The position numbers and the translations under genes were made by a program. Below the pieces are notes generated by a model that did not search any database, was not told the origin of the DNA, and saw nothing but the letters and a program-made list of their open reading frames with translations. DNA of 44,453 bases from a virus: positions 1 through 44,453 of IMG/VR virus record IMGVR_UViG_3300030099_006678. One strand, written 5' to 3'. Below are positions 19,174 to 44,040 of this stretch, in pieces (position 1 is the stretch's first letter; every line of letters starts with the position of its first letter).

Positions 19174-20727
19174 ATGGCATTCCAAGGAATTAACACTGGC
19201 TCTGCACCAAATGATGGCACTGGTGATACCCTCCTGGCCGGTGGTATAAAAGTTAATAGTAATTTTACTGAATTATACAGTCTCCTTGGTAATGGATCTA
19301 CTCTAGCTGTGGGTGTTGTCACTAATACCGGTGATGCATCAGGTGTAACCGGTATCACCACTCTGATTCAAGCCGGTAGTAACATTTCAGTAACAACAAA
19401 TTCTGGAATTTCTACTATTGCGTATACAGGTATTGCTAATACTGCAAATATCAATGCTAATACAGTTAATGTAAGCGGTATTGTCACTGCAACTAGTTTC
19501 AACGGTTCTGGTGCCTCACTGACTGGTGTTTTAACAGCATTGAATCTCGATGGTGCTGATGGTTCTGGTCTTGTCGGTGTTGTAACAACTCTTACTGGAG
19601 CTGATGGTTCTGGTCTTGTCGGTGTTGTAACGACTCTGACAGGTGCAGACGCATCAGGTGTAACTGGTATTACTACACTGATTTCTGCTGGTAGTAATAT
19701 TACAGTGGAGACCACTGCTGGTATAACCACTATCGCATCAACGGCTAGTGGTGTTTCAACCGCCAATGTTAGCACAAATACATTAGTTGTTGCTGGTGTC
19801 TCCACATTTGCTGGTAATGTAGAAGTAACTGCTCAACAGATAATTATTAATAATAGTAATTCACAACTTCGATTTGAAAATGGATCTGGAGGATTTGTAG
19901 GAAGTCTGATCAGGTCTGGTACTGCTGATTTAGTTATAGGTTCAGCTGATGACTTAAAACTTAGATCTGGACTTAATGATGATGTAAAAATATCTGATGG
20001 TAGTTTTGATTATCCTAGAGCAATTTTTAAACGTAATGAGGTAGAACTCTACTACAACAATTCTAAGAAATTTGAAACCACTGGTGTCGGTGTAACTGTC
20101 TTTGGAATCATACAAACTCAGCAGTTAAATGTTTCCGGTGTTTCAACATTCCAAGGAAGAATGATTGGTACTGACACCAATAATGTCATCCCATTCTATT
20201 ACAATAATTATAGCGACTTCCCATCATCTAGTACATACCACGGTGCTGTTGCTCATGCACATAATACCGGCAAATTGTATTTCGCCCATGTTGGTTGGAA
20301 GGAGTTAGTCAATAAAGAATCAGATGGAACTGTTGGTACAGGAACTGAAACATATAATGTTGGTCTTATCACTGCTATTGGAAATAATCTAGTTACTTCT
20401 CAATGGACACTAGGTGCAAGTGGTTCTAGTCACTACACATTCACTGGTCCAGGAAATCTGAATGGTACATCTGACCCAGTAATTTATCTTGCAAGAGGTC
20501 AAACCTATCAGTTTGTTAATAACTCAGGTGGTTCCCATCCGTTTGAAATCAGAGAATCAAATGGTGGTTCAGCATATAGTACTGGTGTAACCAATAATGC
20601 AGCCGCTAGTGGTGTTATTAAATTTGAAGTTCCCTTTGATGCACCAAATACACTTTACTACCAATGCACAAACCATGCCGGTATGGGTGGAACTGTGGTG
20701 GTATATCCTAACAAGTTTACAGTCTAA
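19174..20727 (+). CDS. Tail-fibre-like virion protein with C-terminal cupredoxin domain (517 aa)
   Basis: The N-terminus (MAFQGINTGSAPNDGTGDTL, then VNSNFTELYSLLG) is typical of marine phage fibre proteins. A Ser/Thr/Val-rich beta-repeat shaft follows (residues ~30-240), including a 45-base tandem repeat, and then a NVIPFYYNNYSDFPSSSTYH region with GKLYFAHVGWKEL, known from phage tail proteins. The last ~105 residues look like a small blue-copper fold: SHYTFTGPG, VIYLARGQTYQFVNNSGGSH and YYQCTNHAGMGGTVVVYP. The ligands H455, C498, H501 and M504 have the Cys-x2-His-x2-Met spacing of amicyanin. Placed between gp7 and gp8 with its own late box, it is probably a baseplate-attached fibre or spike. 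Copper binding is inferred. Confidence 0.8.
   Translation: MAFQGINTGSAPNDGTGDTLLAGGIKVNSNFTELYSLLGNGSTLAVGVVTNTGDASGVTGITTLIQAGSNISVTTNSGISTIAYTGIANTANINANTVNVSGIVTATSFNGSGASLTGVLTALNLDGADGSGLVGVVTTLTGADGSGLVGVVTTLTGADASGVTGITTLISAGSNITVETTAGITTIASTASGVSTANVSTNTLVVAGVSTFAGNVEVTAQQIIINNSNSQLRFENGSGGFVGSLIRSGTADLVIGSADDLKLRSGLNDDVKISDGSFDYPRAIFKRNEVELYYNNSKKFETTGVGVTVFGIIQTQQLNVSGVSTFQGRMIGTDTNNVIPFYYNNYSDFPSSSTYHGAVAHAHNTGKLYFAHVGWKELVNKESDGTVGTGTETYNVGLITAIGNNLVTSQWTLGASGSSHYTFTGPGNLNGTSDPVIYLARGQTYQFVNNSGGSHPFEIRESNGGSAYSTGVTNNAAASGVIKFEVPFDAPNTLYYQCTNHAGMGGTVVVYPNKFTV
19555..19644 (+). repeat. 45-base in-frame tandem repeat in the fibre gene
   Basis: Two copies start at 19555 and 19600; their first 32 bases (gctgatggttctggtcttgt...) are identical, and a diverged third copy follows from about 19645. 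Each copy encodes a 15-residue unit of the form ADGSGLVGVVTTLTG. The period and composition suit a beta-helical or triple-stranded fibre shaft that can grow or shrink by slippage. Confidence 0.8.
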
Positions 20728-22328: not shown

Positions 22329-25300
22329 ATGCCACAGGAAACTAATCTCAATGTCGCTCCATATTTTGACGACTTTGATCCATCCTCAAATTATTACAAG
22401 ATTTTGTTCAAACCGGGGTTCCCGGTTCAGTCTAGAGAACTAACTGGTCTGCAGTCTATTCTTCAGAATCAAGTTGAGGAGATGGGAAATCATTTCTTCA
22501 AAGAGGGTGCAAAGGTTATTCCTGGAGATCTTACATATGTTAAAGATTTCTTCGGTATTCAGATTGAACCCGAGTTTCTTGGCATTCCTGTTGGAATCTA
22601 TCTCGATCAATTAGTAGGAACTAAAATTACTGGTGCCACATCCGGTATTACAGCAAAGGTAGTCACTTATATAACCGATGGTGATTCTGAAAGAGATACT
22701 TTTACACTATATGTAAACTATGAGAATTCACCATCTTCTGATGAAGAGACACAAACCTTCCAAGATGGTGAGATTCTGACGACAAGTACAAATATTACTT
22801 ATGCATCAACATTTATTTCTGTTGGAGAGGGATTTGCAACCACTATACCTCAAGATGCAGCAATCGTTGGTTCTTCCTTCAACATATCACAAGGTGTTTA
22901 TTTCCTGAGAGGATACTTTGTAAACGTTAACTCTCAAACACTGATACTTGATCAATATAGTAATACACCATCATATAGAGTTGGTCTTGATGTCATTGAG
23001 GAAATTGTTTCTTCTGATGTCGATCCATCACTTAATGATAATGCAAACGGATTTAGCAACTTCACTGCACCTGGTGCTGATAGGCTTAAAATATCAACAA
23101 CTCTGTCTAAAAAACCCTTAGGTAGATATGACGAGACCAATTTTGTTCAACTTTCGGAGGTAAAAGATGGAGTTCTTCGTCTTATTAACAAAAATACTGA
23201 TTATAACTTCATTGGGGACGAATTTGCGAGAAGAACCTTTGATGAGTCCGGTAACTATTATATCAAGGAATTTGTAACTTCGGTTAAGAACAGTCTTAAC
23301 AACAATGAAGGAAATAGAGGTATCTATAATTCAAATCAAACAACACAGGGAGGAAGTGTTCCCAGTGATGATCTTGGAATCTATAAGATCTCACCAGGAA
23401 AGGCATATTGTAGAGGATATGAGGTAGAGACAATCTCCCCTACCCTTATTGACTTCAATAAGCCTAGATCAACCAAGAAAGTCGAAGATCAAGCTGTCAA
23501 TTTTGGTTTTGGACCCACTCTTAACCTGAATAGAGTAACTGGATCAGCAACCATTGGTATCAACACCTCTCTTACTGTTAGTTTGAGAGATCAAAGGATT
23601 GGTGTTAATTCTCTTACTGCTCCTGGACAAGAAATTGGTGTTGCTAGAATTTATGATTTTGCCCTAGAAACTGGTTCTTACGATACAGCATTCCCGAATC
23701 TCAATAATTGGGATTTGTCATTGTTTGATGTTCAATTATTCTCAACCATCACTATTAATGAAGCTGTCACTCTAAACACCTCTACACATATTGAAGGTGA
23801 ATCTAGTGGTGCAAAAGGTTTTCTTAATGCTAATGTAGCAAGCTCAACTTCAATTGTAGCCACAAATGTTCAAGGTGAGTTTCTTAAAGGAGAAAGACTA
23901 CTCTTCAATGGTGTCCTCGACAATGCAAGATTTATTGTCAAGGATGTAAATCATAAATTGTCTGATGTTAAATCAGTCTTTAGTATTGTAGGAACAGCCG
24001 CAACCTTTACTGCAGACACTATCCAATCAAAAGTTCGTAATTTTGGTTCGGCAAATGTATCTGCTTCAGGTGGTGGTGAATCACTAATTTCGATTCCAGC
24101 TGATCCCGGATTCTCATTCGTGGGTATTGCTTCTATTGGTAATATTGTCAGATATTCTAAACCTGGATTTGATATTGCTACTTTGAACAGAGTTATTGGT
24201 GTTGCTAAAACAAACATTACTGTAGAGGCTGTTGCCACTGTAAATGGTGTTTGTGACGGAACGATCCCGGCAGCAGTCACTGAAGTTCAAAACTTTGAAC
24301 TACTTTCCACAAAGGGAACTGGAAGTGTTGCAGGTTCTGGTAACCAAGCAAATAATAGAGCACTGTATAGCACACTACCCAAGGCAAATGTATCATCAGT
24401 AAATCTTGTTGATTCTGAGATTGTAATTAGAAGACAATATACTACATCAATCAATAACAATTCAACACCTGTTATTAATACTGAAGACAAAGAAGTATTC
24501 CTTCCCTTTGATGAGGAGAGATACATTCTTATCAGATCTGATGGTGGAACTGAAGTATTAACCGAAGATAAGTTTGAATTTACCAATGGTTCTAAATCAC
24601 TTAAGATTAATGGACTTGGCTCTAATGATCCAAATACCAAGTTGATTACAACCATTAGAAAAACTGATGTTAAGTCGAAAACAAAGATTAGAAATATTGC
24701 TCAAGATTTGATTATTAATAAATCTAATACTACAGCATCTGGTATTGGTTCAACTTCTCTTGGAGATGGTTTGACCACAGGTAATTGGCCATATGGTACT
24801 AGAGTTCAGGATAGGGAGATTTCTCTGAATACCGTTGATGTATATAAAATCCACGGTATCTTCCAATCAGAAGATGAAAGTGATCCTGTATCTCCTAACA
24901 TGACACTTTCACAGTTGGATGGTGTTACTGGAACAACTAATGATCTTATTGTTGGTGAGATTATTACAGGTCAAACGAGTGGTGCAAAAGCCATCTACCT
25001 ACAGAAGTTGGATGACACCGCGATCTTCTTTACTTATTTGAATGAGACTGTATTTGCTAATGCAGAGGTTGTGAAATTTGAGTCTTCAACTGTTAATGCT
25101 GTCACATCTAGTGTCAGCCTTGGTTCCAAAGAAATTACAGAAGACTTCCAATTCTTCAATGGTCAAAGAGGAACCTTCTACGATTATTCAAGAATTATTA
25201 GAAACGCAGAAGCACAAATTCCTAATAGGAAAATTCGTGTCTATTATGCATCATCTTCGTATGATGCAGGTGATGAAGGTGATATCACAACGATCAACTC

Positions 25301-28300
25301 TTATGTCGGTTACAACTATAGCACAGAAATTTCTGGTGTAGATAATGTAAGAAACTCTGACATTATTGATGTAAGACCTAGATTGACAGATTATGTTGTA
25401 ACAGAGGGTGGAAGATCTCCCTTTGAATTTGGTGGAAGAAACTTTGTTGATGGAACATCAAATGGTAATAAACAATCTGCCAGACATATTATTGCATCTG
25501 ATGAGTCTCTAACTGTAGATTACAATTACTATCTCCCAAGAGCTGATAGAATTTACATTGATAAAGACGGAACACTGGGATATGTGGCCGGAACTCCTGA
25601 TGACTTCCCACTTCTTCCCGATAGTCTTAGTAATGTAATGAACATTGCTAATGTATATCTCCCAGCATATCTGTATGATGTGGGTGATGCTCAAGTTAAA
25701 TTTATTGAACATAAGAGATATCAAATGAGTGATATCTCTAAATTGGAACAGAGAATCAAGAATCTTGAGTATTACACTTCACTTAGTCAACTGGAAACTA
25801 ATACTCTTAATCTGTTTGTTGAGGATGCAAACGGTCAAAATAGATTCAAGTCTGGTATCTTTGTCGATAACTTCACATCCCTGGAACCACAGGATAGTTC
25901 TATCGGTATCAGAAACTCCATCGATATAGAGAATGGAGTCCTTAGACCATCTCACTACACCACTGCTCTTAACCTTCAACTTGGAACAACTGCTATTGCT
26001 GGTATTGGAACCACGTCAAATGCAAACCAGGATGCAGACTTTGCAGACATTGTAGGTGCCAATGTTAAGAAGAGTGATAGAGTTATCACACTTGATTATG
26101 AAGATGAAAATTGGTTGGAACAACCTTTTGCTACAAGAGTAGAAAATGTTACTCCATTCCTTGTACAGTTCTGGCAAGGTGATATTGAACTCATTCCAGA
26201 AGTAGATGTATGGATTGATGTCAATAGACTTGAGGTAAATGAAGTGATGATGGAGGGTTCCTTCCAAGGCATTGCTGAGGCATTGGGTGCTGAGGTATCC
26301 ACTGCAGCTGATGGTTCTAGAACAGGTGTATCTCCTGTAACCTGGAATTCTTGGCAAACAGTTGGTGTTGATGTAAATACGTCACTTTCAAATAAGGTAT
26401 CCAGTAGCTCTGTTAGTTCCACTAATACTAATCAGTCGAGTTCTAATCAGAATATTGGAACTGGTACGCTGTCAACCACGGTCACAACAAAGAATACGAC
26501 CAAGACTGTAACAACCAACAACGCGATTACAGCTACCACTTCTGTCAATCTTTCTCAGACTAGATCTGGAAGACAGTTCTTTGTTAACGAAAGAATTGAT
26601 ACTGAGTCTCTTGGTGATAGAGTTGTAAGAAGAGAGATTGTTCACTTTATGAGGTCTCGTAACATTAGTGTTATTGGAACGAGATTCAAGCCATTTACAA
26701 GAGTCTATTCCTTCTTTGATGATGTGGATGTCAATAATTTCATGACTCCAAAGCTCATCGAAATTGAGATGATTAACGGAACCTTCGTTGTTGGTGAAAC
26801 TGTTAAAGGTAGAATGGATGACGGTGGATCTCAGGTAACCACTGGTGCTACTGTTGCTTCAATTGACTTCAGAGTAGCTGTACATAATCACAAGTATGGT
26901 CCTTATAATGCACCCACTGACTTCTTTGATAGTAATCCTTACAATAGAGATGTAGTATTCCCCAACATCTATTCATCTGCTTCTAGTGTACTGAATATTG
27001 ATACCTTCAGTCTTCAATCTCAGGACTTCCCACAGTTCACTGGATTTATTGCCAAGTCTATGATCCTCACTGGTCAAACCAGTGGTGCTCAGGCCAAAGT
27101 TACAAATGTCAGAATGATAACTGACAGAGTTGGAACACTTATCGCTTCCTACTTTGTTCCTAATGGTAACAATCCTTCTAACCCATCATTTGAAACTGGA
27201 AGATCAAACTTCCGACTTACAAGTAGTAAGATCAATAGTAGAATTGAAGGTATTGTATCTACTGCAGGTGAGTCTATCTTCTATTCTGAGGGTAGTGTTG
27301 ATGTCACTCAAGAAACAACATTGTCTCTGAGAAATGCAACTGTAAGAAGAGAGGACTTTACACAGTCTAGAATTATTGGTGGTACGGGTGTTTCCAATAC
27401 TATTAATGTTCAGTCTACGGACACTCAAACCTCTACTGATGTTGGAGTAAGTCAGAACTTCAAGGCTTTCCCACCCCCACCTCCACCACCAAGAGTTGAC
27501 CCTCTTGCTCAGACATTCTTTGTAGATGACTTGAGTGGTGTTTTTGTTACTAAAATTGATCTATTCTTCCAATCTAAGGACGAGAATGTTCCCGTTCTAT
27601 TTGAACTTAGAGACACCAAGCTTGGAACACCAACAGAAAGGGTTCTTCCATTCTCTGCAGTCTCTATCGATCCCAAGGATGTTAATTTAAGTGAGGATGG
27701 CACTGTTCCCACAACTGTCACTCTTAAGGCACCTGTATATCTCAATCCACAGAAAGAATATGCAATGGTTCTTCTGTCACACTCTACAGAGTATCGAGTT
27801 TGGATTAGTAGACTTGGTGAGCCAGATGTTACATCTACAAATCAAGAGGCTGGACAAATTCTTGTTACCGAACAACCTCTACTTGGTTCACTGTTTAAGT
27901 CACAGAACGCTTCTGTATGGACACCATCTCAATATGAAGATCTTAAGTTTACAATGTATGTTGCAAACTTTAAGTCACAGGGCACTGTATCTATGTTTAA
28001 CCCTGAACTACCCTCTGATCTTTCTCAAATTGACCCCAACGGTCTTACCATTGAGTCCAGACAAATCAGACTTGGACTGAACAAGTTGGTAAGTGACGGA
28101 GGGCTTGTCAAAGGGAGAACTGTCAAACAGTTGAGTATTGGTTCTCAAGGAACTCTAGTTGCATTTGCAGGATCTGCCACATCAGATTTGACAATCACTA
28201 ATGCTGGTGTTGGTTATACACCGTCTTCACTAGGATTCACCTACACTGGTGTCGCTCTGACTGCTATTACTGGTAAGGGTGTTAATGCCACTGTTGACAT

Positions 28301-29978
28301 TACGATTAATGGTGGGGTTGCTATTGCAGCCACAATTAATGCAGGGGGTTCTGGTTATGTCGTTGGGGATGTTCTGACACCTGTCGGACCCGGATCCCTC
28401 AACCTTGGAAGTGGTATTCAACTTTCTGTAGATCAGACTCTTGGTAATAATACCCTTGTTCTTGACAATGTTCAAGGTAACTTTACTACAAACGCATCTT
28501 ACCCATTATACTACGAGAATGCTGTTGGATTTACAACAGAACTCAATGGTGTTGGTGGTGCTGTTCTCCCAATTGCACCTATTAGAATCAATCATGAAGG
28601 ATCTTATATCCGAGTCTTCCAAAGAAACCACGGTCTCAATTCCAATGTAAACAGAGTTACACTCAGTGATATCAGATCTGATCATCCACCTCGGACTCTG
28701 GCAGTAGCATATCCCTTCAGTTCATCTACTTTTATAACTCTAGATAAGTCTGCTAATGCTAATGGTTACAATACATTTGAAAACATAGGGGTAGCTGGAA
28801 CTAATCCTGGATATGTCAGAATTGGTGAAGAGATTATTAGTTACACTGGTACTAATGGCAGAACTCTAACAGGTATCACAAGAGGTGTTGACAACACCAC
28901 TGTCACAAGACATAATGCTGGTGAACTGGTTTACAAGTATGAACTTGACGGTGTATCTCTAAGAAGAATCAACACTGAACATCAACTTGCAAATGTCAAC
29001 GCAAGTGAATTGGACGAAGCTCCCATCGGACTTGATTATTATTATGTCAAGGTTCAGATGAATGCAAACGGTGTCAATAGGGCACCTGCAAATGCTGAGG
29101 GATTCCCACCACTTTATTTCAGAGAGAGTAAACTTGGCGGTGGTCCTTTTGTCAAGGGATCTTACAATCTCCCATTTAATTTGATCACACCCAAGGTCAC
29201 AACAATTACTCCACTTGGAACTAACCTGATTACTCAAGCTAGAACAATCTCTGCTGCTAGTGTATCTGGAAATCAAGAATCTTATCTTGATAAAGGATTT
29301 AAACAAGTAACTCTCTTTGATAAGAATTACTTTGATGATTTGATGATGGTTGCATCACCTCAAAATGAAGCACTTCAACTTAACGCTGATCTCTTCCCTG
29401 GTAAGAAGTCATTCTCAATGAACTTCACTCTGTTGACCAACAACTCTCGTATCAGTCCAGTTATTGACCTTGACAATGCATCAGTAGTGTTCACCAGTAA
29501 TAGAGTCAACAGACCTGTCACTGATTATGCAGGGGACTTTAAGGTTAATGGAGTATCAGATGATCCCAATAGATTCGTCTATGTGAGTAAGAATGTAGAA
29601 CTTGAGAATCCTGCCACCTCACTTCAGGTGTTACTTGATGGTTATGTCTCCAACTTTGGTGACATCAGAGTATTCTACGCACTGAATCAGACTGGTCCTG
29701 TTCAAGAGTGTATCTTTGTTCCCTTCCCCGGATTCAAGAATAAGGATATTAATGGTTCCATTCTTAATATTGCAAATAATAATGGAACACCCGATAAGAA
29801 AGTTCCCAAGGTTGATTCTTACAGCCCAGAACCACTTATCAATGAATACAGAGAGTATAAGTTTAGCGTTGATGACATCAATCCATTTACATCCTTCAGG
29901 ATTAAAATCATTGGTACATCAACTAACCAAGCTAATGCACCCTTTATCAGAAGTCTGAGAGCTCTGTCGTTTGCGTGA
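22329..29978 (+). CDS. Giant DUF4815 baseplate/tail structural protein (2549 aa)
   Basis: The N-terminus has the DUF4815 signature: YFDDFDPSSNYYKILFKPGF, PVQSRELTGLQSILQNQVE, then MGNHFFKEGAKVIPGD. Further along are a short coiled coil (SKLEQRIKNLEYYTSLSQ, nt ~25735-25800), a Ser/Thr/Asn-rich linker (nt ~26385-26570), a seven-proline run (nt ~27472) followed by RVDPLAQTFFVDDLSG, one VxNxGxGY block (nt 28185-28390), and a D/E-E module (nt 28810-28942). The gene fills the slot between gp8 and gp13 where T4 has gp9, gp10, gp11 and gp12, so it may carry the function of the peripheral baseplate pins and fibre attachment; this is inference from position. No frameshift is seen in 7.6 kb. Its stop overlaps the next ATG (TGATG). 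Confidence 0.85.
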   Translation: MPQETNLNVAPYFDDFDPSSNYYKILFKPGFPVQSRELTGLQSILQNQVEEMGNHFFKEGAKVIPGDLTYVKDFFGIQIEPEFLGIPVGIYLDQLVGTKITGATSGITAKVVTYITDGDSERDTFTLYVNYENSPSSDEETQTFQDGEILTTSTNITYASTFISVGEGFATTIPQDAAIVGSSFNISQGVYFLRGYFVNVNSQTLILDQYSNTPSYRVGLDVIEEIVSSDVDPSLNDNANGFSNFTAPGADRLKISTTLSKKPLGRYDETNFVQLSEVKDGVLRLINKNTDYNFIGDEFARRTFDESGNYYIKEFVTSVKNSLNNNEGNRGIYNSNQTTQGGSVPSDDLGIYKISPGKAYCRGYEVETISPTLIDFNKPRSTKKVEDQAVNFGFGPTLNLNRVTGSATIGINTSLTVSLRDQRIGVNSLTAPGQEIGVARIYDFALETGSYDTAFPNLNNWDLSLFDVQLFSTITINEAVTLNTSTHIEGESSGAKGFLNANVASSTSIVATNVQGEFLKGERLLFNGVLDNARFIVKDVNHKLSDVKSVFSIVGTAATFTADTIQSKVRNFGSANVSASGGGESLISIPADPGFSFVGIASIGNIVRYSKPGFDIATLNRVIGVAKTNITVEAVATVNGVCDGTIPAAVTEVQNFELLSTKGTGSVAGSGNQANNRALYSTLPKANVSSVNLVDSEIVIRRQYTTSINNNSTPVINTEDKEVFLPFDEERYILIRSDGGTEVLTEDKFEFTNGSKSLKINGLGSNDPNTKLITTIRKTDVKSKTKIRNIAQDLIINKSNTTASGIGSTSLGDGLTTGNWPYGTRVQDREISLNTVDVYKIHGIFQSEDESDPVSPNMTLSQLDGVTGTTNDLIVGEIITGQTSGAKAIYLQKLDDTAIFFTYLNETVFANAEVVKFESSTVNAVTSSVSLGSKEITEDFQFFNGQRGTFYDYSRIIRNAEAQIPNRKIRVYYASSSYDAGDEGDITTINSYVGYNYSTEISGVDNVRNSDIIDVRPRLTDYVVTEGGRSPFEFGGRNFVDGTSNGNKQSARHIIASDESLTVDYNYYLPRADRIYIDKDGTLGYVAGTPDDFPLLPDSLSNVMNIANVYLPAYLYDVGDAQVKFIEHKRYQMSDISKLEQRIKNLEYYTSLSQLETNTLNLFVEDANGQNRFKSGIFVDNFTSLEPQDSSIGIRNSIDIENGVLRPSHYTTALNLQLGTTAIAGIGTTSNANQDADFADIVGANVKKSDRVITLDYEDENWLEQPFATRVENVTPFLVQFWQGDIELIPEVDVWIDVNRLEVNEVMMEGSFQGIAEALGAEVSTAADGSRTGVSPVTWNSWQTVGVDVNTSLSNKVSSSSVSSTNTNQSSSNQNIGTGTLSTTVTTKNTTKTVTTNNAITATTSVNLSQTRSGRQFFVNERIDTESLGDRVVRREIVHFMRSRNISVIGTRFKPFTRVYSFFDDVDVNNFMTPKLIEIEMINGTFVVGETVKGRMDDGGSQVTTGATVASIDFRVAVHNHKYGPYNAPTDFFDSNPYNRDVVFPNIYSSASSVLNIDTFSLQSQDFPQFTGFIAKSMILTGQTSGAQAKVTNVRMITDRVGTLIASYFVPNGNNPSNPSFETGRSNFRLTSSKINSRIEGIVSTAGESIFYSEGSVDVTQETTLSLRNATVRREDFTQSRIIGGTGVSNTINVQSTDTQTSTDVGVSQNFKAFPPPPPPPRVDPLAQTFFVDDLSGVFVTKIDLFFQSKDENVPVLFELRDTKLGTPTERVLPFSAVSIDPKDVNLSEDGTVPTTVTLKAPVYLNPQKEYAMVLLSHSTEYRVWISRLGEPDVTSTNQEAGQILVTEQPLLGSLFKSQNASVWTPSQYEDLKFTMYVANFKSQGTVSMFNPELPSDLSQIDPNGLTIESRQIRLGLNKLVSDGGLVKGRTVKQLSIGSQGTLVAFAGSATSDLTITNAGVGYTPSSLGFTYTGVALTAITGKGVNATVDITINGGVAIAATINAGGSGYVVGDVLTPVGPGSLNLGSGIQLSVDQTLGNNTLVLDNVQGNFTTNASYPLYYENAVGFTTELNGVGGAVLPIAPIRINHEGSYIRVFQRNHGLNSNVNRVTLSDIRSDHPPRTLAVAYPFSSSTFITLDKSANANGYNTFENIGVAGTNPGYVRIGEEIISYTGTNGRTLTGITRGVDNTTVTRHNAGELVYKYELDGVSLRRINTEHQLANVNASELDEAPIGLDYYYVKVQMNANGVNRAPANAEGFPPLYFRESKLGGGPFVKGSYNLPFNLITPKVTTITPLGTNLITQARTISAASVSGNQESYLDKGFKQVTLFDKNYFDDLMMVASPQNEALQLNADLFPGKKSFSMNFTLLTNNSRISPVIDLDNASVVFTSNRVNRPVTDYAGDFKVNGVSDDPNRFVYVSKNVELENPATSLQVLLDGYVSNFGDIRVFYALNQTGPVQECIFVPFPGFKNKDINGSILNIANNNGTPDKKVPKVDSYSPEPLINEYREYKFSVDDINPFTSFRIKIIGTSTNQANAPFIRSLRALSFA

Positions 29979-31107: not shown

Positions 31108-32577
31108 ATGTTAAATCCATTCTTTCTTAACGGCACATCATCTGAACAGAACCTGATTCAGAGTCTCGTCAACGAACAACTAAAGATGTATGGTGTGGAG
31201 GTTTTTTATCTCCCTAGACTTTACGCGACTACAAAAACCATCATCAGAGAAGTAATCGAATCTGAATTCAAGAACGCATATCCTCTTGAAGCATATGTTG
31301 ATAGTTACGAGGGATATGGTGGTCAGGGAACCATTTTATCAAAGTTTGGTATCGAGAATAGAGATGACCTGACACTCGTCATCTCAAGAGAAAGATTTGA
31401 AAACTATATTACACCACTAACAAAACAGATCTCAAATATTCAATTGGCTACTAGACCGAAGGAAGGGGATTTGATTTACTTCCCTCTAGGTGACAGACTA
31501 TTTGAGATCAAGTTTGTAGAACATGAACAACCTTTCTATCAACTCAAGAAGAATTATGTTTATGAACTGAAGTGTGAACTCTACAGATATGAGGATGAGG
31601 TTATCGATACTGGAATCGAGACCATTGATGATGAGATTGCACAGATTGGATATATTCAAACACTTAATCTGATTGGTGCTGGAAGAACAGCAACTGCGAC
31701 AGCTGGTTTCTGTGCGTCAGGTGCAGTCAATAAAATTTTCATATCCAATATGGGTAGAAACTTTAGATCTACTCCCACTGTTGGATTCTCCTCTGCACCA
31801 GCTGGTGAAACTACTGCAGCTGGTATAGCATCAGTTTCATATTCATATCCTGGGTGTAAGGGAACAAGTGGTGTAGTCCCTGCAATTCTATTAACTAACA
31901 CTGGATGTGGATACACAGAACCACCAATGATTACTGTAAATGGTGGTGGTGGAACAGGATTTGCAGCAACTACTGGAATTTCTACTAATGGATCAGTTCA
32001 GTCTATTACTGTCACAGATGGTGGTGCTGGTTACACTTCTGCTCCTAAGGTCGCAATAGGAAGTGAACGTGCTAGTGTTGGGTTTGATAGCACAACTGCT
32101 CATTTTGATTCTACATCCTTTACCTTCGACAATGGTGCTCAAAGTCTAGAAGAATTTGCTGTTGGTATAGCAACTATCAACTCTTCAGGAATAGTGACAG
32201 CCATTTATATTGTCAATGGTGGTAGTGGTTATGACTTTACTCCCGTTGTGTTTATCGATCCACCTAAATCAATATCTGACGGTGTAAATGTTGGTGGTGA
32301 GTTTGTATTTAATGAAGTGGTCACCGGATCAACTAGTGGAACTACAGCACGAGTTAAGGAATGGAATACGGTAACGGATACAATGGAGGTTGGTGTTATA
32401 GATGGAACATTTATTAAGGGAGAGTTCTTGACTGGATCAACCTCAGGTGCAAAGTATGTAATTGGTAGTGCAAATGAGGATGATTTGGTCACACCCTTTG
32501 CTGATAATGATACAATTGAGATAGCGGCAGATAAGATTATCGACTTCTCATCCAGTAATCCATTTGGAATGCCCTGA
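31108..32577 (+). CDS. 14: Neck protein gp14 with beta-repeat extension (489 aa)
   Basis: The first ~175 residues match gp14: EQNLIQSLVNEQLKMYGVEV, FYLPRLYATTKTIIREVIES, YGGQGTILSKFGIENRDDL and FPLGDRLFEIKFVEHEQPFY. T4 gp14 has 256 residues; here residues ~190-410 are an extra block of Gly-rich beta repeats (LTNTGCGYTEPPMITV, TDGGAGYTSAPKVAIG, VNGGSGYDFTPVVFID), followed by two TGSTSG units (nt ~32325-32460) of the type also seen in gp7 and the DUF4815 protein. The extra domains would decorate the neck. The last residues (IDFSSSNPFGMP) return to a gp14-like end. Confidence 0.9.
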   Translation: MLNPFFLNGTSSEQNLIQSLVNEQLKMYGVEVFYLPRLYATTKTIIREVIESEFKNAYPLEAYVDSYEGYGGQGTILSKFGIENRDDLTLVISRERFENYITPLTKQISNIQLATRPKEGDLIYFPLGDRLFEIKFVEHEQPFYQLKKNYVYELKCELYRYEDEVIDTGIETIDDEIAQIGYIQTLNLIGAGRTATATAGFCASGAVNKIFISNMGRNFRSTPTVGFSSAPAGETTAAGIASVSYSYPGCKGTSGVVPAILLTNTGCGYTEPPMITVNGGGGTGFAATTGISTNGSVQSITVTDGGAGYTSAPKVAIGSERASVGFDSTTAHFDSTSFTFDNGAQSLEEFAVGIATINSSGIVTAIYIVNGGSGYDFTPVVFIDPPKSISDGVNVGGEFVFNEVVTGSTSGTTARVKEWNTVTDTMEVGVIDGTFIKGEFLTGSTSGAKYVIGSANEDDLVTPFADNDTIEIAADKIIDFSSSNPFGMP

Positions 32578-33623: not shown

Positions 33624-34052
33624 ATGGATAAGTATGAAAAACTCAACGAAACATTTGATGTGACACCCGTTGAAATTGAAAAGGTAAAATCCAATGATAT
33701 CGATGCGAAATTGGCCAAGTTTGAAAACTCCAAGGAAGATATCCGTAAAGACTATGAATACACCAGGGGTAATCTATATTCAATCATTGAAAAAGGACAA
33801 GAGGCAATCAACGGTATCCTAGAACTTGCTCAAGAAAGTGAGATGCCTCGTGCTTATGAGGTTGCTGGTCAGTTAATTAAGAGTGTGTCTGATGCCACGG
33901 ACAAACTCATGGATCTACAGAAGAAGTTGAAAGATGTTAATAAGGAAGAGGAGAAGGGACCATCCTCAGTTACCAATAATGCACTGTTTGTAGGATCCAC
34001 AGCAGACCTACAAAAAATGCTTAAAAAGGTAAACAAAGATCTAAATACTTAA
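33624..34052 (+). CDS. 16: Small terminase subunit gp16 (142 aa)
   Basis: gp16 recognises the DNA to be packaged and stimulates the gp17 motor. The protein is helical and highly charged: VTPVEIEKVKSNDIDAKLAK, RKDYEYTRGNLYSIIEKGQE, AINGILELAQESEMPRAYEV, AGQLIKSVSDATDKLMDLQK, then LFVGSTADLQKMLK near the end. The DY-x-x-x-R-x-N-L-x-x-x-I-E-x-G and PRAYEV-x-x-x-L motifs are those of T4-type gp16 (T4: 164 aa). Unlike in T4, gp17 does not follow directly; two genes (1.87 kb) lie in between. Confidence 0.9.
   Translation: MDKYEKLNETFDVTPVEIEKVKSNDIDAKLAKFENSKEDIRKDYEYTRGNLYSIIEKGQEAINGILELAQESEMPRAYEVAGQLIKSVSDATDKLMDLQKKLKDVNKEEEKGPSSVTNNALFVGSTADLQKMLKKVNKDLNT
34041..34048 (+). promoter_or_regulatory. 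Late-promoter-like box CTAAATAC
   Basis: Located in the last codons of gp16, 13 bases before ATG 34062, the shortest spacing in the window. It could separate the inserted genes from gp16 transcriptionally. Confidence 0.4.
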
Positions 34053-34061
34053 AAAGAGAAA

Positions 34062-34394
34062 ATGGTAGCTCAATCAGTAAATATTCAAATTGATAAGGGA
34101 ACTGATTTTTCTCATAACTTTGAGATGAAAAATCCTGACCAGTCTGTATTCAATCTGACAGGATACTCTGCTGTTGCTAAGATAAGAAAGTTTCCTGAGG
34201 CAACTAAACAACATAGTTTTACTGTTGGTATCACATCAGCAACAGGAATTATTGGATTGTCGATGACAGTTGGTGTAACCACACAACTGACTAACGGAAG
34301 GAACTTCTACGATATTATCATCACATCCGGTGTAGGCACTGTTACCAAAGCATTTGAAGGTAGTGTAATAGTCAATCCATCCGCTTCTGTCTAA
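34062..34394 (+). CDS. Small beta-sandwich structural protein (110 aa)
   Basis: An all-beta-looking protein: VNIQIDKGTDFSHNFEMKN, then FNLTGYSAVAKIRKFPEA, KQHSFTVGI, a Thr/Gly-rich hairpin region and FYDIIITSGVGTVTKAFEGS with VIVNP at the end. The pattern (I-x-I-x-x-G-x-D-F ... L-T-G-Y ... A-K-I-R ... G-x-V-x-V/I-x-P) is that of the Ig-like N-terminal domains of phage baseplate/upper-fibre proteins (BppU type), and small proteins like it occur in marine T4-like phages. Probably a virion component. Its stop TAA (34392-34394) lies inside the late box at 34391-34398. Confidence 0.75.
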   Translation: MVAQSVNIQIDKGTDFSHNFEMKNPDQSVFNLTGYSAVAKIRKFPEATKQHSFTVGITSATGIIGLSMTVGVTTQLTNGRNFYDIIITSGVGTVTKAFEGSVIVNPSASV

Positions 34395-34419: not shown

Positions 34420-35895
34420 GTGGAAGAAAATTTAAGAGAGGGATCCCTTCATAAGTGGTTTAAGGGATCTAAATCTAAAGATGGTAAAGGTGGTTGGGTT
34501 AATGTTGTAACGGGTGGAACCTGTGCAAGTGATGAACCTGGAGAGGGAACACCAAAATGTGTTTCTTCAGCGAAAAGAGCGAGTATGAGTAAGTCCGAGA
34601 GACTTTCTGCTGCTAGAAGAAAGAAGAGAAAAGATCCCCGACAACAACAAAAGTCTGGTGCTGCAAAACCAACATACGTTGCAACCGACAAACCCAAAAA
34701 GAAGAACGAGGAATTCAACATGGAAATACAAGAGTCAGACAAGAAAGGTAAAGGCAGTGGATCAAAAGATGCTTGTTACCATAAGGTCAAGTCTCGTTAT
34801 TCTGTGTGGCCTTCTGCTTATGCTTCGGGTGCTCTGGTAAAATGCCGTAAGGTTGGTGCTGCCAACTGGGGTAACTCAACTAAGAAAGAAGAGTATATGG
34901 CCCTTCCTGAGTTTTCTGATATCCAGATCAAGGCAATGAGAGCCGCTGGTATTGAAGTTGATGTAATTGACGAGAAGTGCTGGAAGGGATATGAGAAGAA
35001 AGGTATGAAGACTATGTTTGGTAAGAGATATCCAAACTGTGTCAAGAAAGAAGAAGTTGAGGTAAGTGAGGAGAAGAAAAATAAGGGTGTGAAGGGAATT
35101 GCGAAAGAGTTGGATGCTGCTGTGAAGATGCACACAAGTCAAGCAAAGAGACTTAGAGCTGCTGGTGTATCTGAAGGAAAGGCCGATGGTGATCCATGTT
35201 GGGACACTCATAAGCAAGTTGGCATGAAGAAGAAAGGTGGAAGAATGGTTCCCAACTGTGTTCCCAAAAACGAAGAGGTAGAGGTATCAGAAAGACAAAG
35301 AGTTATTGAAGCTCTGAGAAATGAGAGTGTTGAGTTGGAGGATGTAGACGGAAAAAAGTTCGCTGAGGTGATCGATGTAGTCACCAATGAAGATCTTGGA
35401 ATTACAATGTCTGAGGCTGCAAGAATTCCTCAGCAGTATGGAAACATCTATCTGGTAGGATTCAACTGGAAGTCCAGATATATGATGATGAGACTGTTCT
35501 TCCCCGAAGTCAAGAAGCCTTCAAGAAAGGATGTACAAGAGGCACTTGATAAAATCTATCCAGGATGTGTAGTACAAAGATTTGACATTGTTCCTTACAA
35601 GCCCGGTGAACCCATGTTGAATATGGGTGTAAAAGAGGAGACTGAACAACTTGATGAGAAGTCTGCTGCATGGCAGAGAAAGGAAGGTAAAAGTAAAACT
35701 GGTGGTCTAAATGAAAAGGGACGCAAATCTTACGAACGCGAGAATCCTGGTTCTGATCTCAAGGCTCCTCAACCTGAAGGCGGTCCTAGAAAACGATCCT
35801 TCTGTGCAAGAATGGGTGGAGTCAAGGGACCAATGAAGAAGCCTGATGGGTCACCTACCCGTAAGGCTTTGGCTCTAAGAAAGTGGAAATGTTGA
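34420..35895 (+). CDS. Modular Cys-pair protein inside the terminase operon (491 aa)
   Basis: A very basic, low-aromatic protein built of short modules, each with two Cys. C35/C47: GGWVNVVTGGTCASDE, then PKCVSS, DUF5872-like. C119/C142: KDACYHKVKSRYSVWPSAYA, then SGALVKCRKVGAANWG. C187/C207: CWKGYEKKGMKTMFGKRYPN, then CV. C260/C280: CWDTHKQVGMKKKGGRMVPN, then CVP. The last two are copies 73 residues apart, both followed by EEVEVSE. Residues ~330-400 form a folded domain (YLVGFNWKSRYMMMRLFFP), and the C-terminus (from GGLNEKGRKSYEREN, with KRSFCARMGG and LRKWKC) resembles DUF6321. These modules occur in many marine phages without known function. Translation starts at GTG 34420. DNA binding, zinc binding or disulfides are possible. 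It lies between gp16 and gp17. Confidence 0.75.
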   Translation: MEENLREGSLHKWFKGSKSKDGKGGWVNVVTGGTCASDEPGEGTPKCVSSAKRASMSKSERLSAARRKKRKDPRQQQKSGAAKPTYVATDKPKKKNEEFNMEIQESDKKGKGSGSKDACYHKVKSRYSVWPSAYASGALVKCRKVGAANWGNSTKKEEYMALPEFSDIQIKAMRAAGIEVDVIDEKCWKGYEKKGMKTMFGKRYPNCVKKEEVEVSEEKKNKGVKGIAKELDAAVKMHTSQAKRLRAAGVSEGKADGDPCWDTHKQVGMKKKGGRMVPNCVPKNEEVEVSERQRVIEALRNESVELEDVDGKKFAEVIDVVTNEDLGITMSEAARIPQQYGNIYLVGFNWKSRYMMMRLFFPEVKKPSRKDVQEALDKIYPGCVVQRFDIVPYKPGEPMLNMGVKEETEQLDEKSAAWQRKEGKSKTGGLNEKGRKSYERENPGSDLKAPQPEGGPRKRSFCARMGGVKGPMKKPDGSPTRKALALRKWKC

Positions 35896-35919: not shown

Positions 35920-37584
35920 ATGGCAAATGATGTTTACTTGGGTAATCCCCTTCTTAAGAAGGCGAATACCGCTATTGAATTTACTGAAGAACAAATTCAG
36001 GAGTATCTAAAGTGTAGGGAAGACCCTATCTATTTTGCTCGTAATTATGTTCAGATCGTTACTCTGGATCATGGTCTTCAGCCTTTTACGACTTACGATT
36101 TCCAAGAGAAATTGATTGACAGGTTTCATAACAACAGATTTAACATCTGTAAGATGCCACGTCAGACTGGTAAATCGACTACCTGTGTCTCGTATCTTTT
36201 ACACTATGCTATCTTCAATGATAGTGTTAATATTGGTATCCTGGCAAATAAAGCTACAACGGCTAGAGAACTTTTAGCTAGACTGGCAACAGCATATGAG
36301 AACTTACCCAAGTGGATGCAACAGGGTGTTCTTGTATGGAACAAAGGTAACATTGAATTAGAAAATGGATCAAAGATTCTGGCTGCTTCTACGTCTGCAA
36401 GTGCTGTCCGAGGCATGTCGTTTAACATTCTCTTCCTCGACGAATTTGCCTTCGTTCCAAACCATATTGCAGATGCCTTCTTTGCCTCTGTTTATCCTAC
36501 TATTACTTCCGGTCAAAGCACAAAGGTAATCATCGTCTCTACCCCACACGGTATGAATCACTTCTACCGTATGTGGCATGATGCTGAGAAAGGTAAGAAT
36601 GAATATGTTCCCACAGATGTTCACTGGTCAGAGGTCCCTGGTAGGGATGAAATCTGGAAAGAACAGACTATTGCAAACACATCTGAACAACAGTTCAAGA
36701 TTGAGTTTGAATGTGAGTTCCTTGGTTCTGTCGATACATTGATTGCACCTAGTAAATTAAAGTCTATGGTGTACGATAGTCCACTCCAAAAGAATGCTGG
36801 ATTGGATATTTATGAACAACCCATAAAAGACCACGACTATGTGTGTACGGTTGACGTGGCACGTGGTGTGGGTAATGACTATTCAGCATTCATCATTGCC
36901 GATATTACATCGTTTCCCCATAAGATTGTAGCCAAGTATCGGAACAATGAAATTAAACCAATGTTGTTCCCTAATGTCATCTGGGAGGTAGTCAAACAAT
37001 ACAACAATGCATTTGTTTTATGTGAGGTCAATGATATAGGAGATCAAGTTGCTTCTATCCTACAGTATGACCTTGAGTATCAGAATTTACTGATGTGTTC
37101 CATGAGAGGTAGAGCAGGTCAGGTTGTAGGACAAGGGTTCTCTGGAAATAAGACACAGTTAGGTGTCAAGATGTCAAAGACTGTCAAGAAGGTGGGATCA
37201 CTGAACCTTAAGACTATGATTGAGGGAGACAAGGTTACCTTTAATGACTATGAAATTATTTCAGAACTGACTACCTTTATTCAAAAGAATAATTCGTTTG
37301 AGGCAGAAGAGGGATGTAATGATGACCTGGCTATGTGTCTGGTCATCTACGCATGGTTGGTTGCACAGGATTACTTTAAAGAACTGACAGATCAGGATGT
37401 TCGGAAGAGATTATATGAAGAACAGAAAAACCAGATTGAACAGGACATGGCACCTTTTGGTTTCATGAATGATGGTTTAGATGAAGGGACTTTTGTTGAC
37501 TCTGAGGGTGATCGATGGACCACTGCTAGTCCTTATGATGAGTATGGAAGTAATGCTGGTGGATGGGAGCTCTGGAACTATTAA
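35920..37584 (+). CDS. 17: Large terminase subunit gp17 (554 aa)
   Basis: The packaging ATPase and headful nuclease. The ATPase domain has Walker A RQTGKST (81-87), Walker B ILFLDE (170-175; D174, E175) and coupling motif STPHG (207-211). The RNase H-like nuclease domain has its acidic triad at VDVARG (D312), LCEVND (E369) and GCNDDLAM (D468/D469), matching D401, E458 and D542 of T4 gp17. Length is slightly below T4 (610 aa), mainly at the N-terminus. No intron interrupts the gene, unlike in some related phages. No late box is seen in the 24-base gap upstream, so it is probably read from the promoter at 34391. The next gene overlaps by one base (TAATG). Confidence 0.97.
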   Translation: MANDVYLGNPLLKKANTAIEFTEEQIQEYLKCREDPIYFARNYVQIVTLDHGLQPFTTYDFQEKLIDRFHNNRFNICKMPRQTGKSTTCVSYLLHYAIFNDSVNIGILANKATTARELLARLATAYENLPKWMQQGVLVWNKGNIELENGSKILAASTSASAVRGMSFNILFLDEFAFVPNHIADAFFASVYPTITSGQSTKVIIVSTPHGMNHFYRMWHDAEKGKNEYVPTDVHWSEVPGRDEIWKEQTIANTSEQQFKIEFECEFLGSVDTLIAPSKLKSMVYDSPLQKNAGLDIYEQPIKDHDYVCTVDVARGVGNDYSAFIIADITSFPHKIVAKYRNNEIKPMLFPNVIWEVVKQYNNAFVLCEVNDIGDQVASILQYDLEYQNLLMCSMRGRAGQVVGQGFSGNKTQLGVKMSKTVKKVGSLNLKTMIEGDKVTFNDYEIISELTTFIQKNNSFEAEEGCNDDLAMCLVIYAWLVAQDYFKELTDQDVRKRLYEEQKNQIEQDMAPFGFMNDGLDEGTFVDSEGDRWTTASPYDEYGSNAGGWELWNY

Positions 37585-37814
37585 TGAATCTTGATGAACA
37601 GATTGAATTAAATCATCTATTACTTACTGATAGAAAATGTAAGAGTTGTGGTGAAGTCAAGAACCTCGTAGATGGATTTTATAGAACAAGAAAGGATAGA
37701 GGACCAGTGCCATCATCATACTCTTATGTGTGTAAGGAGTGTTTTATAGAATATGTGAGAGATAAAAAGAAGGACAAGTGCCCAAGGTCTCGGTGGGAAT
37801 ATCCAGACTGGTAG
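37584..37814 (+). CDS. Small zinc-binding-type protein (76 aa)
   Basis: ATG 37584 shares its A with the gp17 stop TAA (TAATG), a coupled start; an in-frame ATG at 37563 lies inside gp17 and is less likely. The protein contains KCKSCGEVKNLVDGFY and SYVCKECFIEYVRD, i.e. two CxxC pairs 27-30 residues apart, a layout known from small HNH-like or zinc-ribbon proteins (the FY-x-x-R-K motif after the first pair is typical). There is no intact HNH catalytic motif, so a zinc-stabilised binding role is more likely than nuclease activity. I recall similar CK-x-C-G proteins downstream of gp17 in other cyanophages. Confidence 0.8.
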   Translation: MNLDEQIELNHLLLTDRKCKSCGEVKNLVDGFYRTRKDRGPVPSSYSYVCKECFIEYVRDKKKDKCPRSRWEYPDW

Positions 37815-42749: not shown

Positions 42750-42986
42750 ATGGAAGAACTTATGGATTTGCTCGTCAAAGACGATGCAAACGCTTCACAA
42801 ATCAGTGACAAAATTAAAGACATTCTTTTTGCAAAGAGCGCTCAAGAGATTGAAACTATCAGACCTAATGTAGCCGCATCGGTATTCGATGATCCTACTA
42901 CAGAAACTGATGAAGTTGTTAACGAACTTGAGGTTGAGCCCGAAGAGGATGAAGAGGAAGAAACTCAAACAGAGGATCAAGACTAA
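42750..42986 (+). CDS. 67: Prohead core protein gp67-like (78 aa)
   Basis: In T4, gene 67 lies directly after the portal gene and encodes a small acidic core protein that is processed during head maturation. This 78-residue protein has the same position, a similar N-terminus (MEELMDLLVKDDANASQISD against MEGLIEAIKSND of T4, from memory), a helical middle (IKDILFAKSAQEIETIRPNV) and a highly acidic tail (EVEPEEDEEEETQTEDQD). A second ATG at 42762 has a better ribosome binding site (GGAAG), but the T4-like alignment favours 42750. It overlaps the next gene by one base (TAATG). Confidence 0.8.
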   Translation: MEELMDLLVKDDANASQISDKIKDILFAKSAQEIETIRPNVAASVFDDPTTETDEVVNELEVEPEEDEEEETQTEDQD

Positions 42987-43267
42987 TGGCACTAGCATCC
43001 ACAGACGTTACTACAAGTGAATATATCAAGATTGGTGATAATGTAACCACTATTACCTTTCAATGCCAGAGTAATAATCCACTTGTAATTGGAATTACTT
43101 CAACAAATTCTGCGCCGACAGCAACAGATGTTGGATTAGTTTATAAGACATTTGAGGGAGAAATGAAGAAAACAGTGACTGATTTAAGTCATGTTGGTAG
43201 TGCAGCATACGTATGGGCAAGAGCTCTTACAGGGGAAACAGCAACGGTAGTATTTGAAGGTGAGTAA
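42986..43267 (+). CDS. Small putative virion protein (93 aa)
   Basis: Coupled start: ATG 42986 shares its A with the gp67 stop. The protein is beta-rich and without charge clusters: MALASTDVTTSEYIKIGDNV, TTITFQCQSNNPLVIGI, DVGLVYKTFEGEM, then AAYVWARALTGETATVVFEG. A small single-domain beta protein in this position is probably a virion decoration or fibre-base protein; I recall similar short sequences (VTTSEYIKIGD-like starts are unsure) only vaguely, so no family is assigned. Its stop is overlapped by the next gene, making gp67, this gene and the lectin gene one coupled run. Confidence 0.65.
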   Translation: MALASTDVTTSEYIKIGDNVTTITFQCQSNNPLVIGITSTNSAPTATDVGLVYKTFEGEMKKTVTDLSHVGSAAYVWARALTGETATVVFEGE

Positions 43268-44040
43268 TGGCACATCCATTTTTAGGACTGGGATTTAACT
43301 CTTGGTCACAGAAATTTAGTCGCCCTAGCTCTGGTTTTAATATTCCTATAATTACTGACGGACTTTTTATGTACTTAGATGCTGGTGCTTATTCTGGTAG
43401 TGGCACAACTTGGAGTGATTTAGTTGGAAGTAATGATGCAATTCTTGTCAATGGACCTACATTTGTACCTAGTGATGGCACTACTGAAACAGGAGATGGA
43501 TATTTTAATTTTGATGGAAGTGATGACAGAGCCGATTTAGACAACTTAGTTATTCCTGCACAATATTCTATTCATATTGTTGTTTTTAAAGATGGCAATA
43601 CTACAAAAATTGCATTTATTGATCAGGGGTCAATAGGGCGAACACAACCTGTTAGGTTTTACGTTGGCGACTCCGGTGCTGGATCGGGTGCAGCTGGTAA
43701 AATTAAAATTCAGCACGGTCGTTTATTTGCCCAAGGTGGAGCGATAGGAACCACACAAATGCAGAAGGATAGATGGTATATTCTAACCGCAACTTATGAT
43801 GGAAGTGATCTTAAACTATATGAAAATGGAGTGCTGACGGCTGAAACCACATCAGGAACATACCCTGCGCACTCTGTCCACACGGGAGCAAGTATAGCGG
43901 ATCATCATCCAGATTTTGGTTCTAGTATGAAAAATTTTCCTGGAAATTTTGCGCAAGTAGGAGTTTATAATAGAGCACTTTCACAATCAGAAGTTACACA
44001 AAACTTTAACGCAATTTCATCTAAATTTAGACTTTCATAA
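43267..44040 (+). CDS. LamG/concanavalin A-like lectin domain protein (257 aa)
   Basis: Start ATG 43267 is coupled to the preceding stop. After a ~30-residue N-terminal segment, the protein is a single LamG-type jelly roll: LFMYLDAGAYSGSGTTWSDL, then VGSNDAILVNGPTF, YFNFDGSDDRADLD, IPAQYSIHIVVFKDG, RWYILTATYDGSDLKLYENG and FAQVGVYNRALSQSEVTQNF. The Y-D-G-S-x-x-K-L-Y-x-N-G and Y-N-R-A-L-S-x-x-E motifs are characteristic of LamG/ConA-like domains that bind glycans. It probably sits on the capsid or fibres and contacts host or environmental polysaccharides. No signal peptide is present. It is not part of the T4 core set; its place after gp67 marks an accessory island. Confidence 0.85.
   Translation: MAHPFLGLGFNSWSQKFSRPSSGFNIPIITDGLFMYLDAGAYSGSGTTWSDLVGSNDAILVNGPTFVPSDGTTETGDGYFNFDGSDDRADLDNLVIPAQYSIHIVVFKDGNTTKIAFIDQGSIGRTQPVRFYVGDSGAGSGAAGKIKIQHGRLFAQGGAIGTTQMQKDRWYILTATYDGSDLKLYENGVLTAETTSGTYPAHSVHTGASIADHHPDFGSSMKNFPGNFAQVGVYNRALSQSEVTQNFNAISSKFRLS

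Follow-up and report, generated by a model that had tools for sequence, protein, structure and literature searches.

The closest described counterparts of the locus analysed here are the internal proteins of phage T4 (IPI, IPII and IPIII), each encoded by a gene of its own. IPII and IPIII start with MKTYQEFIAE|A (the bar follows the Glu of the signal), and for IPIII ten residues suffice for entry into the T4 core, positions 4 and 7 serving targeting and positions 8 and 10 processing (PMC9026906). IPI, an anti-restriction protein (PMC3012670), starts with MKTFKEF and lacks the Glu at position 10. The prohead protease gp21 cuts after L/I-X-E, also in gp22, gp67 and gp68, single precursors with several such sites that are cut into several fragments (PMC9026906); these are scaffolds, whose fragments largely leave the head. 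In the giant phage SPN3US, head proteins are cut several times after Glu by gp245 and become ejected cargo; cutting there trims long N-terminal propeptides off a single mature protein, and the accessible parts of that account describe no string of mature beads (PMC10052503). Polyvalent proteins of phages and plasmids join many domains per chain in shuffled architectures and are predicted to be packaged and injected; their domains are large and enzymatic, with processing proposed to be carried out by a peptidase domain of their own (PMC5512222).

The window (the whole stretch of DNA analysed, a virus record of 44,453 bases with the T4 neck-sheath-portal order) contains an intact ORF of 491 aa (34420-35895, + strand, GTG start), a member of the T4-GC 119 family, whose reading frame stays open for 16 codons further upstream of the GTG. 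It stands in the order gp14, gp15, gp16 (33624-34052, PF11053; phrog_445, E 1e-55), a 110-aa ORF (34062-34394), the 491-aa target, gp17 (35920-37584), gp18, gp19 and gp20. We consider it probable (roughly 0.7) that the product of the target is a polyprotein whose mini-proteins are released by gp21 in the prohead, reside inside the head and travel with the DNA; we infer cutting, retention, ejection and the roles of the beads from the module structure, the motif at the module borders, the absence of this motif from small-phage relatives, the two genomic settings, the neighbours with targeting peptides and the presence of relatives in virions. The precursor would be built into the prohead core, where the T4-type protease gp21 would cut after hydrophobic-x-Glu at the module borders and release some five to eight beads, small and for the most part basic. 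These would remain associated with the packaged DNA and reach the cyanobacterial host together with it, and one gene could thus do the job of IPI-III, supplying factors that associate with DNA and proteins for early counter-defence or take-over.

All segments of the chain lie on the + strand. A short N-terminal stretch without a canonical targeting peptide (residues 1-7, 34420-34440) ends Leu-Arg-Glu, with a putative cut after Glu7. It is followed by the basic module 1 (residues 8-105, 34441-34734; Cys35/Cys47; phrog_12753), which ends at the putative site Ile-Gln-Glu105, and by module 2 (residues 106-164, 34735-34911; Cys119/Cys142), which ends at the putative site Leu-Pro-Glu164. An acidic linker (residues 165-185, 34912-34974; putative site Ile-Asp-Glu185) leads to module 3a (residues 186-217, 34975-35070; Cys187/Cys207), a predicted beta-hairpin that ends at the putative site Val-Ser-Glu217; a helical, basic linker or bead (residues 218-252, 35071-35175; putative site Val-Ser-Glu252) separates it from its duplicate, module 3b (residues 253-291, 35176-35292; Cys260/Cys280; putative site Val-Ser-Glu291). 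The chain continues with an acidic, disordered linker (residues 292-332, 35293-35415; putative site Met-Ser-Glu332), module 4 (residues 333-413, 35416-35658; beta-beta-alpha-beta fold, related to phrog_1742; putative site Leu-Asp-Glu413) and module 5 (residues 414-491, 35659-35892), a Pfam match to DUF6321.

A preliminary description of the sequence had recognised the four Cys pairs, at exactly these residues, and the duplication of the last two Cys modules, which are 73 residues apart and identical at 18 of 34 positions (E 1e-10 in that single comparison). The copies do share an ending, as it had proposed, in a form slightly different from the one quoted: the first copy reads NCVKKEEVEVSE, one residue shorter than NCVPKNEEVEVSE. 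The DUF6321-like end was equally well founded (PF19846, residues 423-489, E 1e-22, 81 bits against a cut-off of 28.5), and this is the only domain over its cut-off in the window protein across the Pfam, defence-system and NCBI family libraries, the latter two giving no match at all. A DUF5872-like start was not recovered, as no Pfam family is hit within residues 1-107 even with E relaxed to 10; the sole DUF5872 signal (PF19197, positions 12-39) falls on module 2 and is weak (E 0.056; 14.5 bits, cut-off 27.5). DUF5872 has also been listed in an algal virus genome (PMC12085832). The modules had further been called basic, which holds for the first three Cys modules and the end (modules 1, 2, 3a and 5, pI 9.3-10.4) and fails for the fourth Cys module (3b, pI 6.8 with its acidic tail); module 4 has a pI of 8.8. 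In an alignment of 36 of the 81 family proteins each Cys module has two conserved Cys (C47, C119 and C142 are invariant; conservation of C35, C187 and C207 is 90% or more), and a His conserved to at least 90% (His121) occurs in module 2 only, where a zinc-binding domain would call for four conserved Cys or His ligands per module. The pairs most likely staple the tiny folds by disulfides.

The AlphaFold model of the full chain (mean pLDDT 54, pTM 0.24) consists of small folded units, among them two hairpins (191-209, 264-282) and one beta-beta-alpha-beta unit (342-391), joined by spacers with pLDDT below 50, in line with the bead-string architecture suggested beforehand. The preliminary description had missed module 4, a fifth folded unit without a Cys pair (about residues 337-402), which reaches a mean pLDDT of about 81 when folded alone and is the sole part of the full model to find matches in a fold search. 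Its rows (T7 Gp2 and RNA-polymerase epsilon-like, ribosomal LX-like) score Z up to 5.3 and are tied with an aminopeptidase; the match to T7 Gp2 (4lk0_M; Z 5.3, rmsd 2.4, 49 aligned residues) is tied with unrelated rows, all below Z 8, and the modelled likeness to T7 Gp2 and RNA-polymerase epsilon may serve as a weak lead. In the viral library module 4 has ten matches with E up to 1e-3, including named cyanophage proteins and, among them, an S-SCSM1 virion protein. Against PHROG the whole chain matches 16 families within E 1, all annotated as 'unknown function' and touching different parts of the chain, which points to a mosaic. Solved structures gave no sequence match to the target protein, and weak matches to Herpes UL47 (E 0.15 and 0.0099) were below cut-off and were ascribed to composition.

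Relatives are widespread: 554 of 50,697 phage records match the target, mostly from Synechococcus and Prochlorococcus phages, and 21 of the 554 cover at least 80% of its length. Among them modules are gained, lost, duplicated, swapped and relocated, and extra ones are inserted. DUF192 was matched in 2 of 28 relatives and DUF3008 in 1 of 28; the small DUF3008 protein 93 of S-SCSM1 has a counterpart module in locus L077. Random genomic contexts, which the preliminary description had named as evidence against its proposal, were not seen, as all of the best 80 loci (taken from the viral contigs of a longer list) fall in one of two settings. Seventy-seven of these adjoin gp16 and/or gp17 (35 with gp16 upstream and gp17 downstream, 23 with gp17 only and 19 with gp16 only, contig ends limiting this count) and three lie 0.9-1.5 kb after NMNAT; in P-SSM4 the T4-GC 119 gene belongs to the NMNAT group, and a second chain, with modules 2 and 3, lies nearby. 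In podophages DUF6321 is flanked by the scaffold and capsid genes (HTVC304P) or by those for capsid and tail tube (P-SCSP1u). Module 2 was also observed as short stand-alone ORFs (about 49-78 aa) in marine MAG contigs of unrelated phyla (L108-L119; bins assigned to Euryarchaeota, Marinimicrobia, Rickettsiales and others), probably mis-binned viral DNA.

The module borders bear a signal that had been overlooked. In 191 of 231 distinct border contexts of relatives the motif [ILVMF]xE ends at most eight residues ahead of the module core, as against a mean of 48 and a maximum of 68 when the 25 residues upstream of the core were permuted with their composition kept (1000 rounds); as the sequences are related, such counts do not represent independent events. 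The motif is missing from 18 of the 19 contexts of M6, the N-terminal module, because almost nothing lies upstream of it, and without M6 the motif is found in 190 of 212. In the 129 contexts with at least three differing positions, a residue of the set I, V, L, M and F occupies P3 in 112 (87%), P2 and P4 are hydrophobic in 9% and 23%, P2 as well as P4 and beyond are variable, and G, A, K or S predominates at P1'; P1 was set as the last Glu and is 100% Glu by construction, whereas the construction does not account for the presence of a Glu in the short search space of all 355 junctions. For comparison, a hydrophobic P3 precedes 59 of the 202 Glu residues of six structural proteins of the window. 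In 11 isolate proteins that had not been used to find the rule the motif marks 26 of 32 borders (shuffles: mean 8.8, maximum 17 of 32; 5000 rounds), and four of the six misses are the border before module 5. The motif is absent before the core from all six stand-alone DUF6321 proteins that were compared from small phages (P-GSP1, P-SCSP1u, KBS-P-1A, HTVC304P, MEP402 and Vibrio 234P7a; four of these genomes are listed as Autographiviridae). Autographiviridae are not known to have a T4-type prohead protease. The borders thus present hydrophobic-x-Glu at the processing position, as expected of gp21 substrates; the window ends before the position of the gp21 gene, which is carried by S-SM2 and S-SCSM1, both with a homologue of the target. 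Overlap of the sites with disordered stretches was considered as additional support and dropped as non-discriminating, because most Glu residues sit in such stretches.

The weakest joint of the polyprotein model is the missing N-terminal targeting peptide of the window protein. Its N-terminus (VEENLRE) is not a peptide of about ten residues with aromatic positions 4 and 7, hydrophobic position 8 and Glu10, many relatives begin with just MQE or MINE, and no N-terminal targeting peptide turned up when the window was scanned for them; the same scan of S-SCSM1 returned two close copies and five looser or spurious matches. We therefore do not file the protein as a member of the T4 internal proteins, as the N-terminal peptide was looked for and is not there. 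It resembles them in the small, basic predicted products, the hydrophobic-x-Glu signal, the T4-type phage and the neighbouring and related genes that begin with near copies of MKTYQEFIAE, and differs from them in its several beads per chain, its in-chain sites and its Cys-paired modules. Neither does it qualify as a polyvalent protein, since several disparate enzymatic domains were not found in its chain, which has tiny beads without enzymatic domains and borders of the prohead-protease type.

Such peptides are, in turn, frequent around the module genes. Directly after the module gene, 12 of 13 places examined hold an ORF, and all 12 ORFs have a targeting-type N-terminus (some after a few extra residues). 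Thus, S-SCSM1_30, which adjoins the module gene, starts with MKTFKQFMSE|S, and SSZBM1_192, a DUF6321 protein in the same slot, with MKTFKQYITE|A. The peptide also occurs inside a chain: SSZBM1_194 of S-SZBM1 (L104:1493-3616; 707 aa) contains ITYREFIAE|G, with the Glu at residue 548, and the bead that begins 19 residues further on (from residue 567) matches SAM lyase (PF23780, 33.0 bits, cut-off 28). This bead, which is not present in the window protein, recalls the anti-restriction IPI, SAM lyases being phage counter-defence enzymes (PMC7877911). The border TYSQFAQE|CWKTH of locus L067 resembles a remnant of a targeting peptide. NMNAT, beside which the second setting lies, has a targeting-type N-terminus in S-SM1, P-SSM4, S-RIM2, S-SCSM1, S-CREM2 and loci L049 and L059, has one that is a residue shorter in Melnitz, and has none in HTVC008M.

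NMNAT has repeatedly been found in cyanophage virions (PMC3037559, PMC9602691, PMC10665884, PMC9146016), and relatives of the target accompany it. In S-CREM2 virions (mass spectrometry, Table 3) gp137 was detected by 4 unique peptides (4.1%) and gp160 by 7 (13.1%), next to gp136 (8), gp155 (5) and the NMNAT gp154 (3) (PMC10665884); from their sequences gp137 comprises modules 4 and 5 and gp160 modules 1, 3 and 2, which together make up all five module types, and gp136 and gp154 start with MQTFSMFFSE|D and MKNFSSFLTE|A. The full-length relative SSCSM1_29 is labelled virion protein in the S-SCSM1 record, as are the site-rich chains 89 and 92, NMNAT 91 and the small DUF3008 protein 93; S-SCSM1_30, with its targeting peptide, does not have this label. 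Forty-eight coding genes of S-SCSM1 are so labelled, and 45 proteins are said to have been detected by mass spectrometry (PMC9602691); the labels appear to derive from such data, because they include the translational repressor, NMNAT and other non-structural genes. In S-SZBM1 the proteins 191, 192 and 194 are all absent from the 30 virion proteins of Table 1 (PMC9146016), and the homologues in the Syn9 and S-SM1 records have no structural label; the S-SM1 record leaves its NMNAT, which was detected by mass spectrometry, unlabelled too.

Detection in virions is not proof of retention in the head, because gp21 and the scaffold turn up in cyanophage virion proteomes as well. The main rival to a cargo polyprotein is a cleavable prohead-core scaffold in the manner of T4 gp67, gp68 and gp22, most of whose fragments would exit the head and so free space for the DNA. 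The protease motif would be identical, the beads are small, and the T4 core proteins are likewise cut into several fragments (PMC9026906). We nevertheless hold a scaffold to be unlikely, as the target has folded, basic, Cys-paired and strongly conserved modules between its sites, unlike the acidic scaffold-like neighbour at 42750-42986, and as these modules are also encoded by a separate gene equipped with a targeting peptide, by small phages without one and by short MAG ORFs, one relative having an enzyme-like (SAM lyase-like) bead. An intact multi-domain virion protein of the head interior or tail, with acidic spacers and borders that reflect mere linker composition, would agree with the Glu-rich linkers and with the structural or virion labels in the RN05-S and S-SCSM1 records. 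Composition alone, however, yields 48 motifs in shuffled linkers where 191 are observed, the constraint lies at P3 (and P1) and not at P2 or P4, the sites are missing from the small-phage versions and some border peptides match the known targeting and cutting signal, so that an uncut protein appears improbable to much the same degree, or slightly more so.

The preliminary description had argued from the position between terminase subunits for a role in packaging or in delivery with the DNA. A terminase accessory that acts in DNA packaging would fit the many loci in which the family directly precedes gp17, yet this neighbourhood carries no weight, because the gap between gp16 and gp17 has been described as a variable hot spot (PMC3037559), which in relatives holds tail-fibre-like genes too, and because the family has a second locus beside NMNAT. 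A Pfam profile search found no terminase-like domain in the target protein, relatives were found by mass spectrometry in finished virions, and we regard an accessory of this kind as very improbable. The packaging half of the proposal is thus left without its positional argument, and delivery is favoured by the protease-type junctions, the neighbours with targeting peptides and the virion data.

Beyond the single gene, and more tentatively (we would put it a little below even odds), marine T4-like phages may shuffle their head cargo, with small effector genes, each bringing its own targeting and cutting signal, fusing into polyproteins at the gp16-gp17 and NMNAT loci. Recombination at the signals would build new sets, and one precursor could deliver many mini-effectors at infection, some of them anti-restriction proteins (as the SAM-lyase-like bead suggests). 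Cargo shuffled in this way would amount to genuine polyprotein processing in a phage with double-stranded DNA. Should the polyprotein reading hold, abundant ocean cyanophages would package a modular assortment of small proteins derived from a single precursor. It would also account for a large group of virion genes of 'unknown function' (the 554 matching records), provide a sequence rule for phage cargo (a targeting decapeptide plus hydrophobic-x-Glu borders) and make the first minutes of host take-over in cyanobacteria testable. The literature searched, which comprised few subscription papers, yielded no published description of a cyanophage head-cargo polyprotein and, with the same scope, none of DUF6321; for cyanophages and capsid targeting it yielded a T4 review only.

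Several other ORFs of the window deserve mention. After gp20 lies an acidic, scaffold-like ORF of 78 aa (42750-42986), which by eye resembles SSM2_115 of S-SM2 and is possibly a gp67-like core protein. Further downstream of the portal gene, an ORF with a Laminin-G/concanavalin-like lectin domain (43267-44040, 46.5 bits) takes a position where S-SM2 has prohead-core genes. The baseplate and fibre region includes two very long ORFs (7052-19141 and 22329-29978; 4029 and 2549 aa) and a gp9/10-like baseplate protein (19174-20727), whose C-terminal end comes near the plastocyanin/azurin copper-binding family (21.1 bits, cut-off 21.2). The neck protein gp14 (31108-32577) has a repeat-like C-terminal extension (residues about 188-320) that also matches baseplate and fibre PHROGs. 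An 83-aa ORF with two CxxC pairs (37563-37814) overlaps the end of gp17, and the gene in its place is named endonuclease (VII) in S-SCSM1 and RN05-S.
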